Origin: Bacteroidota bacterium
GTDB taxonomy: Bacteria > Bacteroidota > Bacteroidia > UKL13-3
Direction of reading: 5' to 3'
DNA length: 64,000 nt
Assembly (NCBI GenBank): GCA_947464275.1
Contig: CANHVU010000015.1
Span: 1 to 64,000, forward strand
Shown here: piece by piece, positions 8,201-62,281 of the stretch
Layout of the letters: each line of letters opens with the position of its first letter
How positions within the stretch are numbered: the first letter of the stretch is position 1
Position numbers and translations under genes: made by a program
Notes under the pieces: model-generated
Seen by the model: the letters and a program-made list of their open reading frames with translations, nothing else
Told to the model about the DNA's origin: nothing
The model's database searches: none

Positions 8201-9601
8201 GACGCTCAATTTTTAGTTTCTTCTATCGATCCAAAAGATTCAATGTTTTTATCACTTTCGGGATCTTTATTGGATTTTGGTAATATAACTTTTACCCAAT
8301 TAAATGGTTTAGGACAAGCTATAGTTGGTTTTAAAATGATTACAGATTGTAATACTGAGTTGAAATCATATGTATTATATTTTAAAGTTAGAGATAATCA
8401 ATGTCCTCAACCACGTGAGAAAACAAAGGTAATTACTGTCAATATTTTGCCAATTAGTAGTTTGCCTGTGCCTGATATTAACTGTCCAATAAGAATTAAT
8501 AATCAATCTGTAAAAGTAACTTTACCACAATTTAGTAGTACTAAGTATTTTAAAAAATTGAAATTAGTAAGGTATAACGAAAGCAACTTTGCAACCTTAG
8601 TAGGTGAGTATCCTACCTTGCCAACCGACTTAATTATTACCGACAATAATGCTACCAATAATAGAGTCATCAATTATTGTTATCAAACCATAAGTTATGA
8701 TGTGTGCGATCGTCCTGTTGATAGTTCTAATAGAGCTTGTATGCAAATAACCGATGGTAATTATCCTCAAAAATTAACATGGTATACCGTAACTGTTAAG
8801 GATGATAAAGAGGTGAAATTAGTTTGGAATAAATCGAAAAACGATAGTAAAGCATTTTTAAATTATTCAATTTATAAAATGCAAGATAGAAATGGAAACG
8901 GTTTTAACTTTATTGGTAGTGTTAATAATATTAGCGATACGTTTTTTATTGATAAGGATGTAAAAGTTGATGACCATTCGTATTGCTATAAAGTAACCAA
9001 TTCAAACGCGTGCGGAATTGAAAGTATTGGTAATGATTCGGCTTGTAGTATTCTGTTAAAAGGTATTTCGGAAAAATTAGCTCATACACTTGAGTGGCAA
9101 GACTATAATTATTGGACATTAGGCGCTCAAAAATTTGATTTATTGCGTTCCAATGCTTACTACCCAACTTTTATTAATGTTTTACCTAATAGTACCAAAC
9201 AATTGGTAGTTCAAGATACCAAGTTAGATTACAATGTAGGTTTATATTATTACCAAACTGTGGCGCATCAAAATCCTAATATTGGTAATGCAACCAGCGA
9301 ATCAAATATCATTGAATTGATACAAGCACCTTATGTATACGCACCAAATGCCTACACTGCCAATGGCGATAACCTAAATGATGTTTGGAAAGTATCGCAT
9401 GCTTTTGTAAAAGAATATAATTTAAAAATATTTAACCGTTGGGGTCAATTAATTTTTGAAACCAATGATAAAAACAAACCATTTAATTTAAATATTGGCA
9501 CTCAAATTATAGCAAATGATGTATATGTTTATTTAATTGAATACAATGGATGGAATGGCGAAAGCAATACTTTAAAAGGAAATTTTACTGTTTTGAAGTA
9601 A
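5216..9601 (+). CDS. Large T9SS type B (gliding motility-associated C-terminal) surface protein with SBBP repeats
   Basis: About 1461 residues. A signal peptide (LLIVLLLSSFSVASWA) is followed by a DUF7948-like N-terminal domain (KFIENKGQWTPEVLF). SBBP-type beta-propeller repeats span roughly residues 250-720, with repeats of the type DCIVAKFSPDGTTMLWASYL and FISKLSGDG. Several Ig/fibronectin-like segments follow. The last ~85 residues are a gliding motility-associated C-terminal domain (APNAYTANGDNLNDVW, LKIFNRWGQLIFET), the signal for export by the type IX system and surface attachment or release. No ATG exists near the N-terminus: an in-frame TAA at 5207 leaves only TTG 5213 or GTG 5216. 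Likely adhesin or surface-layer-type protein; ligand unknown. It ends 3 bases from a convergent gene. Confidence 0.85.
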   Translation: MLTLLNKSIDKTINALLKSLLIVLLLSSFSVASWAIGDTKFQIKFIENKGQWTPEVLFKADIPGGHLFVSKNCLTYYLIDKKAVHDHQHGHKIKQANAQVVKVFFEKATINDIEVSKHLPFEEYYNFFIGSQNNWQSKVRAYGQIVLKNIYKGIDLEINSNGYYAKSNFIVKPNADPNQIKLRYEGADSIFKENEDLVVKTWVGTIVEQKPESFQRLSNVSTSIYSSYKFEKNVLSFNIGEYQKDRELIIDPTLIFGTYVGSVSDNFGFCSAFDLNGNAFAGGTVYGANFPKTTGRFQATFAGGFGGGNEYARDCIVAKFSPDGTTMLWASYLGGSSNEQPHSMSANSVGDLVVMGSTYSSNFPVNANGFDNSFNGVSDIFISKLSGDGTTLNGSTFLGGAARDGISGNEELGYPASNGILCYNYSDWYRGEVILDRFDNIYISSVTSSKNADLMPLPNAFQPTYGGGNIDGLIAKFNTNLTNLNFCTYVGGSGEDACYAIIIDVLNNLYVTGGTTSSNLPGASITYPYNADVDGYILKTNTSGFGTPTTVYVGTSSYDQSFLIQVNDRGDVYVIGQTTGNINVSPGVYNVPNGKQFIKGFDRSLSTEIVSTTFGKPAAFPSLSPTAFVIDKCDRLYFSGWGGNVNLINNPNLDNTNGLPTTTNAFQRTTDGSDFYLMILGDGLKELSYASFYGGNKSAEHVDGGTSHFDKNFIIYQTVCAGCWGNSDFPTTTGAWSNVNPGRNNKYIGSAGCNIGVFKFNLDASIYPPEFRDTILYVNAGDTLDFLANIFDKDNDSISVLATGKILMPGINPAIFTVESRSKGLTQARLKWATLCKDFVSDTFLVDLSLVDDACPVSKTGSGKIKIIVLSPPIPSPFLACLSSVDDNTVNIKWNAYATKPATFGHLKLLKSINNGPFVVIDTIANWQTINRLDLNALNHKILQTQYKLVSVNNCGIIGDTSRIISSIYIGDTINNPSFLDVADTVINIIQTDTLDAQFLVSSIDPKDSMFLSLSGSLLDFGNITFTQLNGLGQAIVGFKMITDCNTELKSYVLYFKVRDNQCPQPREKTKVITVNILPISSLPVPDINCPIRINNQSVKVTLPQFSSTKYFKKLKLVRYNESNFATLVGEYPTLPTDLIITDNNATNNRVINYCYQTISYDVCDRPVDSSNRACMQITDGNYPQKLTWYTVTVKDDKEVKLVWNKSKNDSKAFLNYSIYKMQDRNGNGFNFIGSVNNISDTFFIDKDVKVDDHSYCYKVTNSNACGIESIGNDSACSILLKGISEKLAHTLEWQDYNYWTLGAQKFDLLRSNAYYPTFINVLPNSTKQLVVQDTKLDYNVGLYYYQTVAHQNPNIGNATSESNIIELIQAPYVYAPNAYTANGDNLNDVWKVSHAFVKEYNLKIFNRWGQLIFETNDKNKPFNLNIGTQIIANDVYVYLIEYNGWNGESNTLKGNFTVLK

Positions 9602-39840: not shown

Positions 39841-39877
39841 AAAAGCGCTTCTTTAAAAATAAGGAAGCGCTTTTTTT
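39841..39877 (+). terminator. Rho-independent terminator of the SPFH gene
   Basis: Stem AAAAGCGCTTC (39841-39851) / GAAGCGCTTTT (39864-39874) and a T-run to 39877. It cleanly separates the SPFH gene from the paralog array that follows. Confidence 0.9.
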
Positions 39878-39910: not shown

Positions 39911-40426
39911 ATGCTAAAATATGTAATGTTATGGTTGTTTTGTGTTGGTTTTATAAATGCCAATGCTCAACAAGTTGTTTCTTTCCTTAATAAATCAAAA
40001 AGCAGAGTTCATAAATATAGCTTGCCTCAAAAAGTAACTTTAAAATCAAACATTGGAGAAATACGGGAGGCTATACTTATAAATGTGAATGGAGATACTT
40101 TGTATTTTACAAGTTTAAAAAACAAGAAAATTGAATATAGCATGATGTACAATCAATTAAAATATATAAAATTTCATCACAATGCTGAAGCACCACTTTA
40201 TATTGGTAAATATGCATTTATTGCGCTAGGAACTGGTTTAACTTTTATAGGAACTATATCTTTACTTCACGGATATTCAGATGTGATATCAGCTAGGGTA
40301 TACCGTGAATTTGGTACATCACTTTTATTTGGGGGACTTGGTTCTTTTATAGTTAGCTCTATATTTAACAGTGGCTTGCCTAAAGAATTTAATTTTAAAA
40401 ATAATGATTTAATAATTAACAATTAA
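39911..40426 (+). CDS. Paralog array member 1: signal peptide, beta domain, hydrophobic tail
   Basis: First of six tandem relatives. About 171 residues: signal peptide MLKYVMLWLFCVGFINANAQ, then a beta-rich domain (about 22-90) with the family pattern Y-x-LP-x-KVT-x-K, GDTLYF and YNQLKYIKFH, then two hydrophobic segments (about 97-115 and 133-150) and a short tail NSGLPKEFNFKNND. The family motif resembles short SH3/LSm-like beta domains, but I cannot name it. An exact TATATTTG -7-like motif sits at 39899-39906, very close to the ATG, so a start at ATG 39926 is also possible. Function unknown. Confidence 0.65.
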   Translation: MLKYVMLWLFCVGFINANAQQVVSFLNKSKSRVHKYSLPQKVTLKSNIGEIREAILINVNGDTLYFTSLKNKKIEYSMMYNQLKYIKFHHNAEAPLYIGKYAFIALGTGLTFIGTISLLHGYSDVISARVYREFGTSLLFGGLGSFIVSSIFNSGLPKEFNFKNNDLIINN

Positions 40427-40428
40427 TT

Positions 40429-40932
40429 ATGTATAAAGTAAGTTTATTGCTGTTTATCGTGTTTTGCATTATATCAAATTTGCACTCTCAACAAAAAGTA
40501 GGTTTTGAAAAGATGGGTTTGAGTAGACATAAAAATATCAAATTATTTAAGTTACCATCCAAGTTTAAATTTGAAACCAATACACATAACGAATTCAAGG
40601 CAATGCTTGTTAAAGTAGAAAATGACTCTCTATATTTTAAATCTAAAACAGGAGTTGCATATGTTTATCATTTAAATGAAATAAATAATATAAAGAAATT
40701 GTCTATTTTGAATGGTATTCAAACAGTACTTTCCGGCACTTTATTAGCCATTACTACAGGTTTTTTTTCTGGAGTGGTAGTGAAAATTGTGGATGGTCCA
40801 AGTCATAACGTAAAAGAAATTGCAGGTCTTAGTGCTTTAACTGCCGTGTTTTCTGGAATAAGTTGGGCATCTATATCTTTTCAAAACAGAACTAAAAAAT
40901 TATCAAAATATAAAATAATAATTTTTGAATAG
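40429..40932 (+). CDS. Paralog array member 2 (diverged)
   Basis: A 167-residue member, 2 bases after member 1. Signal peptide MYKVSLLLFIVFCIISNLHS then QQKVGFEKMG. The beta domain keeps LFKLPSKFKFETN and VENDSLYFKSK but has HLNEINNIKKL in place of the usual YNxLKYIKFH. Hydrophobic segments lie at about 103-121 and 135-153. It lacks the N-S-x-LP motif of the tail. It is one of the two most diverged copies. Confidence 0.62.
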   Translation: MYKVSLLLFIVFCIISNLHSQQKVGFEKMGLSRHKNIKLFKLPSKFKFETNTHNEFKAMLVKVENDSLYFKSKTGVAYVYHLNEINNIKKLSILNGIQTVLSGTLLAITTGFFSGVVVKIVDGPSHNVKEIAGLSALTAVFSGISWASISFQNRTKKLSKYKIIIFE

Positions 40933-40937
40933 TAAAT

Positions 40938-41456
40938 ATGTTATTGAAACTAAAAATATTAATTATACTCAATATGTGTTTTTGTTTGGCTAACGCTCAA
41001 AAAGTGATAACTTTTTTTACCAATAAAAAGCAAACGGAAACTATTGATTACACTTTACCTCATAAAGTAACTTGTAAAACCAATGAAGGTAAAAGGTTAC
41101 AGTTAATACTTGAAAAGGTAAATAACGATTCTTTTTATTTTTCGAGTTTGCAAAATTCTGAAATGAAATACACAACGCATTATAATGATTTGAAATTTAT
41201 TAAGTTTTATAAAAAGGGAGAAATACCTTTGAAATTTGGCAAATATTCATTTATAGCAATTGGTACATACTTTACTGCATTTTCAGGGTTTCTGATTACT
41301 CGTTCATTTATTGTTCCTGAATGGACTAAATTAAATAGAGAAGTTGGTTTGGCTTTGTTACTTCCTGCTTCATTAAGTTTTATAATTTCCACAAGTTTCA
41401 ATAGTAGTTTACCTCTTAAACTCAAATTCGTTAAAAATAAATATATTGTAAAATGA
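40938..41456 (+). CDS. Paralog array member 3
   Basis: A 172-residue member, 5 bases after member 2. Signal peptide MLLKLKILIILNMCFCLANA then QKVITFF. It has the full family pattern: YTLPHKVTCKTNEGKRLQL, VNNDSFYFSSLQN, HYNDLKFIKFYKKGEIPL, hydrophobic segments at about 106-123 and 138-155 and the tail NSSLPLKLKFVKN. It is the closest relative of member 1 (GKYSFIAIGTYFT versus GKYAFIALGTGLT). Its stop overlaps the start of member 4 (ATGA). Confidence 0.65.
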   Translation: MLLKLKILIILNMCFCLANAQKVITFFTNKKQTETIDYTLPHKVTCKTNEGKRLQLILEKVNNDSFYFSSLQNSEMKYTTHYNDLKFIKFYKKGEIPLKFGKYSFIAIGTYFTAFSGFLITRSFIVPEWTKLNREVGLALLLPASLSFIISTSFNSSLPLKLKFVKNKYIVK

Positions 41457-41917
41457 AAATATTTAAGAATCTAGTTTTATTGGCGCTACTATTTTGTTAC
41501 AGCATGGTTAATGCACAACAAATTGTATTGAAAAAAAATGGAACTCTAAATAGATATACAATTGATATGCCTAATAAGCTAAAGATTAAATATTTTACAG
41601 ATTCAAGTATAAATAATTTTAAAGCAAAAGTAATTGCTTATGAGTTCCCAAATATGACGGTTCGTGTAAAGAAAGATACTATTATTATTGATGTAAGAAA
41701 AATTACAGAGGTGAAATATACTTCAGATGCAGTAGTTTTTTATTATGGCACTTCAGCTGTTATTTCAATTTTGTTTTTGCCCATGTTTTTTATCTCTATT
41801 CACGAAAAAATTTATGAAGCAGTACTAACTTCTGCTGGTGTACTTACAGGTGCTTACTTTTTAGCCAAACAAGGCAAAAGAACATTTAATACAAAAAATG
41901 AATGGCGATTTGAATAA
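41453..41917 (+). CDS. Paralog array member 4 (diverged, short)
   Basis: A 154-residue member with a 4-base overlap with member 3. Signal peptide MKIFKNLVLLALLFCYSMVNA then QQIVLKKNG. The beta domain is shortened and diverged (YTIDMPNKLKIKYFTDS, IDVRKITEVKYTSD). Two hydrophobic segments follow (about 100-117 and 124-138). The family GDTLYF motif is replaced by NMTVRVKKD. Assigned to the family from position, architecture and the MP-x-KLKIK block; weaker than the others. Confidence 0.55.
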   Translation: MKIFKNLVLLALLFCYSMVNAQQIVLKKNGTLNRYTIDMPNKLKIKYFTDSSINNFKAKVIAYEFPNMTVRVKKDTIIIDVRKITEVKYTSDAVVFYYGTSAVISILFLPMFFISIHEKIYEAVLTSAGVLTGAYFLAKQGKRTFNTKNEWRFE

Positions 41918-41930
41918 ACATAATTTAACC

Positions 41931-42410
41931 ATGAAAAAAACGTATCAGTTTATAATTTTTATTTTTGTGTTTATTACTAGCAAAGCTCAGCAGCGGATAA
42001 TTTTATTTGAAAAAAATGATAGATTAATGCACAAAACATACACCTATAATTTACCAATGGATGTAACTGTTTATCTGAAAAATGGCCAGGTATATGAACG
42101 TGTTTTAACCGAAGTGATTGGAGAAAAACTATTTTTTAAAGATTCAATTAAAATTCAAATTGACTATAAAAAGTTGAAGTATATAAGTTTTCACTCTAAA
42201 AGTGAACGAAGTTATAAAAAGGCTAAAAAATTAACAAGACTTGGCGGACTTTCATTATTTTTCATAGGTATAATGCCAAACAAAAATAATAGTTTTATTC
42301 CTGCTGTATTCCTTACAAGTGGAATTACGCTTTTCTTGTATTCTTATTCTTTCAATTCAAAAATCTCTCAAAAAATAAAAACAAGTAAATGGGAAATTCA
42401 ACCACTTTAA
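41931..42410 (+). CDS. Paralog array member 5
   Basis: About 159 residues from ATG 41931, which gives a clean signal peptide (MKKTYQFIIFIFVFITSKAQ). The frame is open back to an ATG at 41898 overlapping member 4, but that start would add a hydrophilic leader. Beta domain: TYNLPMDVTVYLKNGQVYER, VIGEKLFFKD, DYKKLKYISFHSKSE; then hydrophobic segments at about 100-115 and 122-138 and FNSKISQKIKTSKWEI. Conserved architecture; function unknown. Confidence 0.62.
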   Translation: MKKTYQFIIFIFVFITSKAQQRIILFEKNDRLMHKTYTYNLPMDVTVYLKNGQVYERVLTEVIGEKLFFKDSIKIQIDYKKLKYISFHSKSERSYKKAKKLTRLGGLSLFFIGIMPNKNNSFIPAVFLTSGITLFLYSYSFNSKISQKIKTSKWEIQPL

Positions 42411-42418
42411 TTTATAAA

Positions 42419-42937
42419 ATGATGCTTCATAAAATATTTTTTGCACTTATTGTTTTAATTACCTTAAGCGTTAAAAGTCAACAGCGTATATTTTTTGTTA
42501 ATAAAGAAGAACCTTATGATAAAGTGGCTATTTATAAACTACCGCAACATGTTACTTGCACATTTAACAATGGTGAAAAACAATCACTTGTTCTAGAAAA
42601 AGTGATTGGCGATACCTTAATTTTTGAGCCATTTCAATACAGTTCTGAGCATCCAACTTATTTATTTAGTAATTTGAAAAAAGTATATTTTCATAAAAAA
42701 GGTGAGTATGTGTTAAAGGTAATAACTTTGGGTTTTGCGGGTGTTTCTGTAGCATCCGTGGTCAGTTTTTTTATAGCGGCAAATCAATACAGCCAGCCTA
42801 GTGAAAATGGAGGTAATATTGCATTACTTTTTTTTCCACCATTCGCATTGATTACAGGCACTATAGCTGGTTTGGTTTACACTACTTTACCTAAAAGTTA
42901 TAAGAGTAAAAATTATCAAATTTTTATAAAACAATAA
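42419..42937 (+). CDS. Paralog array member 6
   Basis: About 172 residues from ATG 42419 (42422 is also possible); signal peptide MMLHKIFFALIVLITLSVKS then QQRIFFVNK. Beta domain: YKLPQHVTCTFNNGEKQSL, VLEKVIGDTLIFEPF, YLFSNLKKVYFHKKGEYVL, then two hydrophobic segments (about 104-122 and 138-158) and a tail TTLPKSYKSKNYQI. It is the last of the array; the next gene is an unrelated helicase 47 bases on. Confidence 0.63.
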   Translation: MMLHKIFFALIVLITLSVKSQQRIFFVNKEEPYDKVAIYKLPQHVTCTFNNGEKQSLVLEKVIGDTLIFEPFQYSSEHPTYLFSNLKKVYFHKKGEYVLKVITLGFAGVSVASVVSFFIAANQYSQPSENGGNIALLFFPPFALITGTIAGLVYTTLPKSYKSKNYQIFIKQ

Positions 42938-56461: not shown

Positions 56462-56962
56462 TTAAGAGTTAGGAATTAAACGGAAATTTTTCCTTTTTAT
56501 TTTTTTAGGTAATTTACTTTTAAAAATAGAATAAATAATCAAAGGTGGAACTGAGAAAGCTAAACCAATTGTTCCCATTAATTTTAATTGAGGTTCACCA
56601 ACAGTAACAGCAAACAAAGAAAAAAATGAAGTTGTGAAACCTAAAGCACCAAATATAATGGCTCCAACTTGATTTAAATTTTGATTGTAAGCATTGAATT
56701 TTAAGTAATTAATTTGGGAATAGTTTACTTTATATTTCTTTCCATTTTTTAGATTCTCAAAGTAAAAAGTATCATTCTTTACAGCATTTAGTTTCAATTC
56801 TTTTTGTTCACCAGTATTAAGCTTACAATAAACTTTATGTGGAATAAAATAATGCAAAGTGTCTTCTTTATCATCAATAAATGCTATTACTTGTTGAGCA
56901 TGTATTGATTTTACGCATAATAACAAAATAACAAAAGCCGTCAATTTAAACTTACTTCTCAT
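56462..56962 (-). CDS. Seventh member of the paralog family, away from the array
   Basis: A 166-residue relative of the genes at 39.9-42.9 kb, alone and on the other strand. Signal peptide MRSKFKLTAFVILLLCVKSIHA then QQVIAFIDD. Family pattern is complete: YFIPHKVYCKLNTGEQKEL, VKNDTFYFENLKNGKKY, NYSQINYLKFNAYNQ, two hydrophobic segments (about 100-120 and 128-148) and a basic tail KSKLPKKIKRKNFRLI. It resembles members 1 and 3 most. The dispersed copy shows that the family is not only a local duplication. Confidence 0.65.
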   Translation of the reverse strand: MRSKFKLTAFVILLLCVKSIHAQQVIAFIDDKEDTLHYFIPHKVYCKLNTGEQKELKLNAVKNDTFYFENLKNGKKYKVNYSQINYLKFNAYNQNLNQVGAIIFGALGFTTSFFSLFAVTVGEPQLKLMGTIGLAFSVPPLIIYSIFKSKLPKKIKRKNFRLIPNS

Positions 56963-59966: not shown

Positions 59967-60902
59967 ATGAAAAAAATAATTTTAGTTTGTTTTGGATTAT
60001 CTGTTTTACTTAATGGATACGGTCAACAAAAAGTTGTTAACCCACAATCTGAGGTAAAAGCTGTTCAAAATGATGGTAATTTTTTAAAAAGGAAAGTGGC
60101 AATTGGCCGTTTTACCAATGAAACACAGTACGCTAAGGGTTTATTCTACACCAAAGCAAATGATCCAATTTTAAAGCAAGCTTATGATATTTTAAGTACT
60201 AAATTAACTTCTTCTGGTAAGTTTATGCTTTTAGAAAGAGGTGATTTAGATAAAATTCAAGACGAATTTAAAATTACTGGAGACTCCTCCGCAAATCAAA
60301 AGGTAGGAGCGGATTATATTATTATAGGTTCTGTTACCGAGTTTGGAAGAAAAGAACTAGGCCAAAATAAAGTTTTTTCAACAGCAAAAACACAAACAGT
60401 ACAAGCAGGAGTTAGCTTGAGATTGGTTGAGGTTTCAACTGGATTAGTTATTTATTCAGAAGAGGGTAAAGGAGAAGCAACTACAACCGCTAAAACTACT
60501 TTAGGATTAGGTGCTACCGCTGATTACGATGCTACATTAAGCGATAAGGCTATTTCGATGGCAATTTCTAAATTAGTAGAAAATATTGTTCAAAATTGCT
60601 CAGATAGGCCTTGGAAATCATATTTCTTAGCATATGACGAGAACGGTATCATTGTTTCTGGTGGCAAAAGCCAAGGGTTAAAAGTTGGTAACACATTTTT
60701 AGTTTGCGAAAAAGGCCGAAAGGTAAAAAACCCACAAACAGGAATGGTGCTTGAGTTACCTGGTAAAGTAGTAGGTAAAGTAAAAATTGATTCTTTTGCT
60801 GGAGATACTCCTGAGAGTGAGTTTGCAATTGTAACGATGATAGAAGGTACAATTAATAAAGACAAATTAGATAACTATTTTATTAAGGAGGACAAAAAAT
60901 GA
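59967..60902 (+). CDS. CsgG/HfaB-like outer-membrane assembly protein
   Basis: A 311-residue protein with a signal peptide (MKKIILVCFGLSVLLNGYGQ) and the CsgG fold pattern: KRKVAIGRFTNETQYAKGL near residue 41, ILSTKLTSSGKFMLLERGDL near 73, VGADYIIIGSVTEFGRKE near 111 and VSLRLVEVSTGLVIYSEEGK near 148. CsgG forms an outer-membrane secretion channel for curli; in this operon it is joined to DUF4810 and DUF799 genes, not to csgA/B/E/F, so a different envelope role is likely. No lipobox Cys follows the signal peptide, unlike CsgG. Confidence 0.85.
   Translation: MKKIILVCFGLSVLLNGYGQQKVVNPQSEVKAVQNDGNFLKRKVAIGRFTNETQYAKGLFYTKANDPILKQAYDILSTKLTSSGKFMLLERGDLDKIQDEFKITGDSSANQKVGADYIIIGSVTEFGRKELGQNKVFSTAKTQTVQAGVSLRLVEVSTGLVIYSEEGKGEATTTAKTTLGLGATADYDATLSDKAISMAISKLVENIVQNCSDRPWKSYFLAYDENGIIVSGGKSQGLKVGNTFLVCEKGRKVKNPQTGMVLELPGKVVGKVKIDSFAGDTPESEFAIVTMIEGTINKDKLDNYFIKEDKK
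60885..60891 (+). promoter_or_regulatory. Strong Shine-Dalgarno of the small lipoprotein gene
   Basis: AAGGAGG lies inside the end of the CsgG-like gene, 7 bases before the ATG at 60899. Strong SD sequences are uncommon in Bacteroidota, so this suggests deliberate translation of the overlapped gene. Confidence 0.6.
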
Positions 60903-61240
60903 GAAATAATTATTTTAAAGTAATTCTGTGTATAGCAATTAGTATTATAATAAATAGTTGCGCCCAAGTTAGAACTTATTCAACTGGTTTAAGTAACGAT
61001 GCGGTGCTTGAATTCGTTGGAAATCCTAAAAAATTTAAAGGTGGTGTTGATGTAGAAATAGATAATAACTTAAAGTTTAAAGCACTTGTAAAAAAAGATT
61101 ATGCTGAAAAACCAACTGGTTATGTATACACAATTTCCAAAGGAACCCATTCTATTGTAGTATCCTACAATGGAACTAAACTATACAGCAATCAAATTTT
61201 TGTATCACCTCAAGAAACTAAAAAGATAGTTCTACAATGA
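60899..61240 (+). CDS. Small lipoprotein of the CsgG/DUF4810/DUF799 operon
   Basis: A 113-residue lipoprotein (lipobox IINSC, Cys 21). The mature part is beta-rich (VGNPKKFKGGVDVEIDNNLK, TYTISKGTHSIVVSYNGTKL-like strands near the end) and ends with ETKKIVLQ. It overlaps the CsgG-like gene by 4 bases and the next gene by 4. I do not recognise a family; it may be the Bacteroidota-specific extra subunit of the complex. Confidence 0.65.
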   Translation: MRNNYFKVILCIAISIIINSCAQVRTYSTGLSNDAVLEFVGNPKKFKGGVDVEIDNNLKFKALVKKDYAEKPTGYVYTISKGTHSIVVSYNGTKLYSNQIFVSPQETKKIVLQ

Positions 61241-61605
61241 AAAAAATATTATTCTTAGCAGTAACTGCTATTATGTTGGCTTCTTGCCAAACAGCAAACA
61301 AACCATTATATAGTTGGAGCAAATATGAATCCGTATCATACGCTTATTTGAAAAGTAAGAATGATAAAAGTACAAAAGCTTTGTTAGAGGATTATAAAAA
61401 GATTGTAGCAAAACAAAATGGTTCAAGAAAACAAGTTCCTCCTGGTGTTTATGCCGACTATGGTTTTTTACTAATTCAAAATGGTAGAACGACTGAAGGC
61501 AGGGCCTTTTTGAAAAAGGAAATTGCCTTATATCCAGAATCAAAAATTTTTATAGACAGAATATTATTAATGACAGAGCAAGAAAAAGATGAAAAAACTA
61601 AATAA
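61237..61605 (+). CDS. DUF4810 family lipoprotein
   Basis: A 122-residue lipoprotein (LASC lipobox, Cys 17) with the DUF4810 pattern KPLYSWSKYESVSYAYLKS near residue 23, VPPGVYADYGFLLIQNGRTT near 68 and FLKKEIALYPESKIFIDRIL near 88. The sequence has helix pairs like a tetratricopeptide repeat. DUF4810 genes usually lie between a CsgG-like and a DUF799 gene, for example in Neisseria, as here. Overlaps both neighbours. Confidence 0.85.
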   Translation: MKKILFLAVTAIMLASCQTANKPLYSWSKYESVSYAYLKSKNDKSTKALLEDYKKIVAKQNGSRKQVPPGVYADYGFLLIQNGRTTEGRAFLKKEIALYPESKIFIDRILLMTEQEKDEKTK

Positions 61606-62281
61606 TTACCTATACATCACTTTAATAATAACCGTTATTAGTAGTTGTGCTAAACCTATTTTAAAATCAGAGGCTTATAAAAAACTGTATAAAGAAGAGC
61701 CCAAAACAGTTTTAATTATGCCCCCAATTAACAAAACTACAAACGTAGAAGCTAAAGAGTATTTCCACTCTACACTTTCTGTACCATTAAGCAATATGGG
61801 CTACTATGTTATCCCTCCATTTTTATCGATGGAAATACTTAAAAAAGAAAGTGCTTACAACTCGGAATTATTTCTTGATGCCCCATTATCTAACTTTGGC
61901 GATATATTTGGAGCAAATGCCGTTTTATTTACTATTATTCATAAATGGAATAAAAATGTTCTTTTTGCAAAAGTAACCGTTGAAATAGAATATATTCTTA
62001 AATCAACAAAAACCAACGAAATTCTATATACAAGAAGAGGTGTTATTGAGTACAGTACTTCTTCAAATACTGGTGGAAATTCAAGTTTAATGGGATTGGC
62101 AGCAGCAGCAGCTACATCGGCTATAAAAACTGCAGCTACAGATTATACAATGTTAGCTCGTAAATGCAATAGCTATACCTTGAGTGATTTACCTTTTGGA
62201 AAGTACAGTCCAAAATACAAATTGGATGGTAAAGAGCGTGCGGGAAAAAAATCATTTAAAGTAAGCATTGGTAGTAGATAA
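61589..62281 (+). CDS. DUF799 family (GNA1162-like) lipoprotein
   Basis: A 230-residue lipoprotein (lipobox VISSC). DUF799 pattern: EEPKTVLIMPPINKTTNVEA near residue 36, YFHSTLSVPLSNMGYYVIPP near 58, FGANAVLFTIIHKWNK near 107 and VTVEIEYILKSTKTNEILYT near 130. GNA1162 of Neisseria has a TolB N-terminal-like fold and sits in the same type of operon. It overlaps the DUF4810 gene by 17 bases and is the last gene before a strong terminator. Confidence 0.88.
   Translation: MKKLNNYLYITLIITVISSCAKPILKSEAYKKLYKEEPKTVLIMPPINKTTNVEAKEYFHSTLSVPLSNMGYYVIPPFLSMEILKKESAYNSELFLDAPLSNFGDIFGANAVLFTIIHKWNKNVLFAKVTVEIEYILKSTKTNEILYTRRGVIEYSTSSNTGGNSSLMGLAAAAATSAIKTAATDYTMLARKCNSYTLSDLPFGKYSPKYKLDGKERAGKKSFKVSIGSR

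Follow-up and report, generated by a model that had tools for sequence, protein, structure and literature searches.

Do tandem genes for small exported proteins encode the parts of one assembly, or a set of proteins that each act alone? The question is raised by six head-to-tail genes, g1 to g6, in the window, by which we mean the whole 64,000-nucleotide stretch of Bacteroidota DNA analysed here. An earlier note on this DNA had described six genes with their sizes and spacings, a terminator in front and a helicase gene behind, and all of these are found: the genes are open reading frames at 39911-42937 (+), separated in order by 2, 5, -4, 13 and 8 nt, and the flanks are a hairpin and a UvrD-type gene. 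The seventh copy that it counted, g7, is real, and two more copies, paired on a different contig of this genome, could not have been seen from the window. The features are as follows.

39841-39874, + strand: intrinsic terminator 5' of the array, with a 15-pair stem, a 4-nt loop and a T run
39911-40426, + strand: g1, type I, 171 aa; predicted signal peptide, small barrel and transmembrane hairpin
40429-40932, + strand: g2, diverged type I-like, 167 aa; 45 bits against the profile from other genomes
40938-41456, + strand: g3, type I, 172 aa; AlphaFold2 mean pLDDT 88.7
41453-41917, + strand: g4, type II, 154 aa; 4-nt overlap with the g3 stop; AlphaFold2 mean pLDDT 86.4
41931-42410, + strand: g5, diverged type I-like, 159 aa
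42419-42937, + strand: g6, type I, 172 aa
42985-46191: UvrD helicase with a PD-(D/E)XK domain, 3' of the array
56462-56962, - strand: g7, the seventh copy, type I, 166 aa; adjoins an HrpB-like helicase
L071:7999-8604 and 8927-9442: further family pair on contig C18 of the window's genome

For g5 the start is placed at an internal ATG, from which a normal signal peptide is read. Upstream of the array there is a Band_7/SPFH gene, and the array shows no instance of the Bacteroidetes promoter motif TTTG-N-TAnnTTTG.

Paralogy, rearrangement and distribution

A profile made solely from family members of other genomes scores all nine copies in the window's genome at 31-137 bits, and g1 to g7 at 45-137 bits, whereas the best of the 2682 shuffled copies that were scored reaches 12.6 bits. 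By this measure of sequence g1 to g6 are strongly diverged paralogs, as had been proposed; an alignment of all seven copies is too divergent to yield a pattern for scanning. The motif string offered as common to them fits g1, g3, g6 and g7 best without being universal: both GDTLYF and YNxLKYI are absent from g4, and YNxLKYI from g2. The NSxLP tail is exact in g1 and g3 but only in those two, with a similar KSKLP in g7.

Ortholog pairs between genomes give dN/dS of ~0.1-0.4 (0.23-0.36 for the g7 orthologs in two sister genomes), and these are therefore maintained protein-coding genes whose orthologs, judged by these ratios, are under purifying selection. Together with an architecture that points to an inner-membrane anchor and not to the cell surface, this speaks against the surface-diversity role that had been suggested. 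As a separate observation, single copies do decay, as in sister genome G009 where a g7 ortholog (L030:12223-12729) is broken by an in-frame TAA.

In the tree, g4 and seven relatives form a clade, type II, with support of 96/99; the deep order among the long branches is unresolved, and g2 and g5 have long terminal branches. The idea of an old duplication holds for some copies, as the type II clade and the triplet recur in more than one species, but it does not hold for all, since g1 and g3 split less deeply, as sisters with 41% identity, and recombination has reshaped the array either in a sister genome or in the window's genome. In sister genome G003 a gene at L028:9526-10041, 85% identical to g3, consists of the upstream region and signal peptide of g1 fused to the mature part of g3, with a clean switch just past the signal-peptide codons. 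This event could be a loss in G003 or a gain in the window's genome. Beside the helicase gene that flanks the array, three members are found in G001, G005, G007 and G009, as against six in the window, and one member plus a truncated copy in G003. Within the G003 interval, adjoining the truncated member, there is also a DRT3 reverse-transcriptase defence pair (L028:10367-13992; Drt3b of 712 aa and Drt3a of 494 aa), which marks this as a variable spot.

Within the window's taxonomic family, matches occur in 17 of 64 genomes at E <=0.01 (15 of 64 at E 0.001), and the carriers span six of the 14 genera; the order-level genome set consists of the same 64 genomes. G008, a sister genome of the same genus, has no member. 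Occurrence in few genera of one family, and the lack of any member in G008, mean that the function is dispensable, which counts against the assembly proposed below. A contig scan with the g7 orthologs returned solely contig G009:C17. Across the phylum the full-length profile gives 38 matches in 395 genomes; nearly all of these span the signal peptide alone (positions 1 to ~45), those inspected are unrelated, and we do not count them as relatives. A profile of the mature part gives just three weak matches beyond the window's genome, in a scoring of nine first-look candidates per genome that may miss deep relatives. One of the three, in G194:C31 (E 1e-5), shows a barrel followed by a hairpin and is possibly related at a distance. 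On these searches the family is restricted to close relatives, and it is absent from the four libraries consulted: Pfam, NCBIfam, PHROGs and PADLOC gave no acceptable model. The earlier statements that the family is not a recognised one and that no enzyme motif is seen are both borne out by those libraries.

Exported proteins with a predicted small barrel and membrane hairpin

All members have an N-terminal hydrophobic segment, and Gln stands at +1 in 32 of 32 aligned members (alignment A2). Gln at +1 of the signal peptidase I (SPase I) cleavage site is the Bacteroidetes Q-rule, and the A|Q site common to every member matches it (PMC5837995; PMC10653852), so that the proteins are taken to be exported SPase I substrates and not lipoproteins. 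The (A/S)QQ end of the signal peptide, once listed as a hallmark of the array, is thus present but is no family trait, the Q-rule being a targeting feature of most exported proteins. By 19-residue hydropathy 27 of 33 members have three hydrophobic segments, namely the signal peptide, H1 and H2; those that fall short are five type II proteins and g5, whose first segment after the barrel lies under the threshold.

AlphaFold2 models were made, as single chains, of g3 as a typical copy and g4 as the most divergent one. The two agree in architecture and in one order of elements: the signal-peptide helix, two short strands, a five-strand barrel, a helix hairpin and two short C-terminal strands. The shared beta domain and two hydrophobic segments described earlier are thereby refined to a predicted Sm/SH3-like small barrel and membrane helix hairpin, and the unrelated folds against which the family was to be checked do not appear in these two copies. 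The g3 barrel aligns with Gemin6/7 at Z 8.2 (53 residues, 1.5 A) and with many Hfq chains at Z 7.4-8.1. For g4 the best Sm-like match reaches only Z 4.8; its top structural matches are generic helix pairs, to which we give no weight. Confidence is good in the predictions of export, barrel and hairpin, and the models place the domain securely in the small-barrel class at large. Descent of the g3 barrel from Sm proteins in particular is not secure, because Z scores near 8 are common and no sequence profile matches.

The likeness to Sm, LSm and Hfq proteins lies in the five-strand, strongly bent barrel, over which the g3 model aligns 53-60 residues at Z 7.4-8.2. However, in those proteins an N-terminal alpha helix sits on the barrel, whereas in the models strands 23-27 and 35-39 precede the barrel and no N-terminal helix is present apart from the signal peptide. 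The array proteins are moreover exported and membrane-anchored, which makes an RNA role unlikely, and none of the seven copies matches an LSM or Hfq profile at E up to 1. A sequence search of solved structures returned nothing below E 0.3, and the viral fold library nothing below E 1e-3. The literature searched contained no relevant membrane-anchored small barrels, and we did not find an exported Sm-like barrel with a hairpin, in type I/II pairs, described there.

Pairing of the two types and a possible assembly

In eight of eight cases the first 4-11 nt of the type II gene overlap the end of a type I gene. Such pairs occur at several genomic locations, some beside the helicase and others at a second locus, found in two genomes behind a pyruvate-dehydrogenase-like E1 gene; the type II gene of L035 likewise has its type I partner. 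Overlaps of this kind usually indicate translational coupling, often of subunits of one complex. The constant overlapping order, which is the chief evidence on this point and an indirect one, suggests that type I and type II proteins assemble together.

We propose that these are inner-membrane-anchored periplasmic small-barrel proteins, co-translated and probably forming mixed oligomers whose partner is a periplasmic or outer-membrane component, and we hold this proposal with middling confidence; the anatomy is well supported, and the choice of membrane, the topology, the assembly and the partner are inferred. In this model, a Sec/SPase I signal peptide directs export, and Q-rule cleavage should expose an N-terminal Gln. 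The mature protein is predicted to begin with the Sm/SH3-like barrel, followed by the hydrophobic helix hairpin and, at the end, short strands; the hairpin would be embedded in the inner membrane, and the barrel and the C-terminus would both face the periplasm. The array genes would form one transcription unit, with co-translation of type I and type II subunits, which would associate through barrel edges and hairpins. The resulting oligomers could act in the periplasm as a platform for binding or scaffolding, without enzymatic activity; an outer-membrane beta-barrel protein is a possible partner. Duplication and recombination in the array would have altered how many subunits, and of which kinds, each species has.

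Other explanations need to be weighed against this proposal. It is rather unlikely, though the long terminal branches of g2 and g5 would fit, that the proteins are independent envelope-stress or lipoprotein-like barrels, each working alone, with the array providing dosage while copies drift. YgdI/YgdR lipoproteins (DUF903, PF06004) are small exported barrel proteins of unknown function, and would share the general fold class. They are, however, held by a lipid anchor on Cys, in place of which the array proteins have a Q-rule SPase I site and a helix hairpin; there is no lipobox Cys, Gln being at +1 throughout, and the PF06004 profile finds no match at E up to 1. Nor would the overlapping type I-II order in all eight cases be expected of independent units.

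A copy number that varies beside a fixed flanking gene, together with the recombination and truncated copy in G003 and a Drt3a/Drt3b pair showing that the spot accepts conflict genes, could instead suggest a variable cassette of periplasmic immunity or other conflict proteins: a diverged, membrane-anchored, antitoxin-like array with one protein per incoming toxin. Yet no toxin gene is recognised next to any member, ortholog selection is purifying and not diversifying, every type II gene is coupled to a type I gene, and g1, g3 and g4 have no PADLOC match; VipB/TssC likewise has no match in the genome, which is a weak test for a Bacteroidota-type T6SS. We regard this explanation as decidedly improbable. 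That the genes are two-component spanins or other phage-derived lysis proteins is almost certainly wrong. The NCBIfam spanin2 model NF037951 does pick out g2 (E 5e-5) and g4 (E 1e-3), but the scores of 23.3 and 19 bits, where the curated cut-off is 100, contradict that identity; there is no lipobox, viral contigs (searched with g6), phages and plasmids (both searched with g3) yield no match, and chromosomal orthologs are retained across species.

Mixed oligomers of the kind favoured here could in the extreme take the form of one membrane-anchored periplasmic heteromeric Sm-fold ring with the array genes, with or without g7, as its subunits. Such a ring would be an extracytoplasmic bacterial counterpart of the eukaryotic Sm heteroheptamer, its hairpins making a membrane bundle or pore, and with six or seven subunits it would be striking. 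We consider it very unlikely; copy number is not conserved (1 to 6 at the helicase locus), and such variation speaks against a ring whose composition is fixed and obligatory. If the copies do co-assemble, they offer a natural system for the passage from homomeric to heteromeric small-barrel assemblies after gene duplication; if they do not, this is an ordinary lineage-specific expansion of envelope proteins of unknown role. The family, which none of the libraries searched describes, is an expansion within one lineage, and its small envelope proteins belong to a fold class that is already known.

Neighbouring genes of outer-membrane type

Pfam OMP_b-brl genes neighbour the family at three other loci, in G016, in G027 and, beside g7, in G003. 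The G016 gene lies directly upstream and overlaps, its match being under the Pfam cut-off, and the G027 gene is divergent; the array in the window has no outer-membrane gene neighbour. The window's genome has only five OMP_b-brl_2 genes, which makes the adjacency suggestive, although it was spotted post hoc. At the h1 locus a gene of 235-240 aa, of outer-membrane type by eye, is divergent to a family member, an arrangement conserved in two genera (L071:7253-8604 and L114:5156-6492, with outer-membrane-like genes 64% identical).

Two further gene groups were seen in passing. Two species, represented by G004 and G006, share a four-gene operon (L038:8849-11072 and L118:5512-7728) encoding a small lipoprotein-like protein, an exported protein of ~222 aa and two diverged family-like proteins. 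In the window itself, four small genes for exported proteins or lipoproteins form an operon at 59967-62281 that resembles the CsgG/DUF4810/DUF799 type by eye only.
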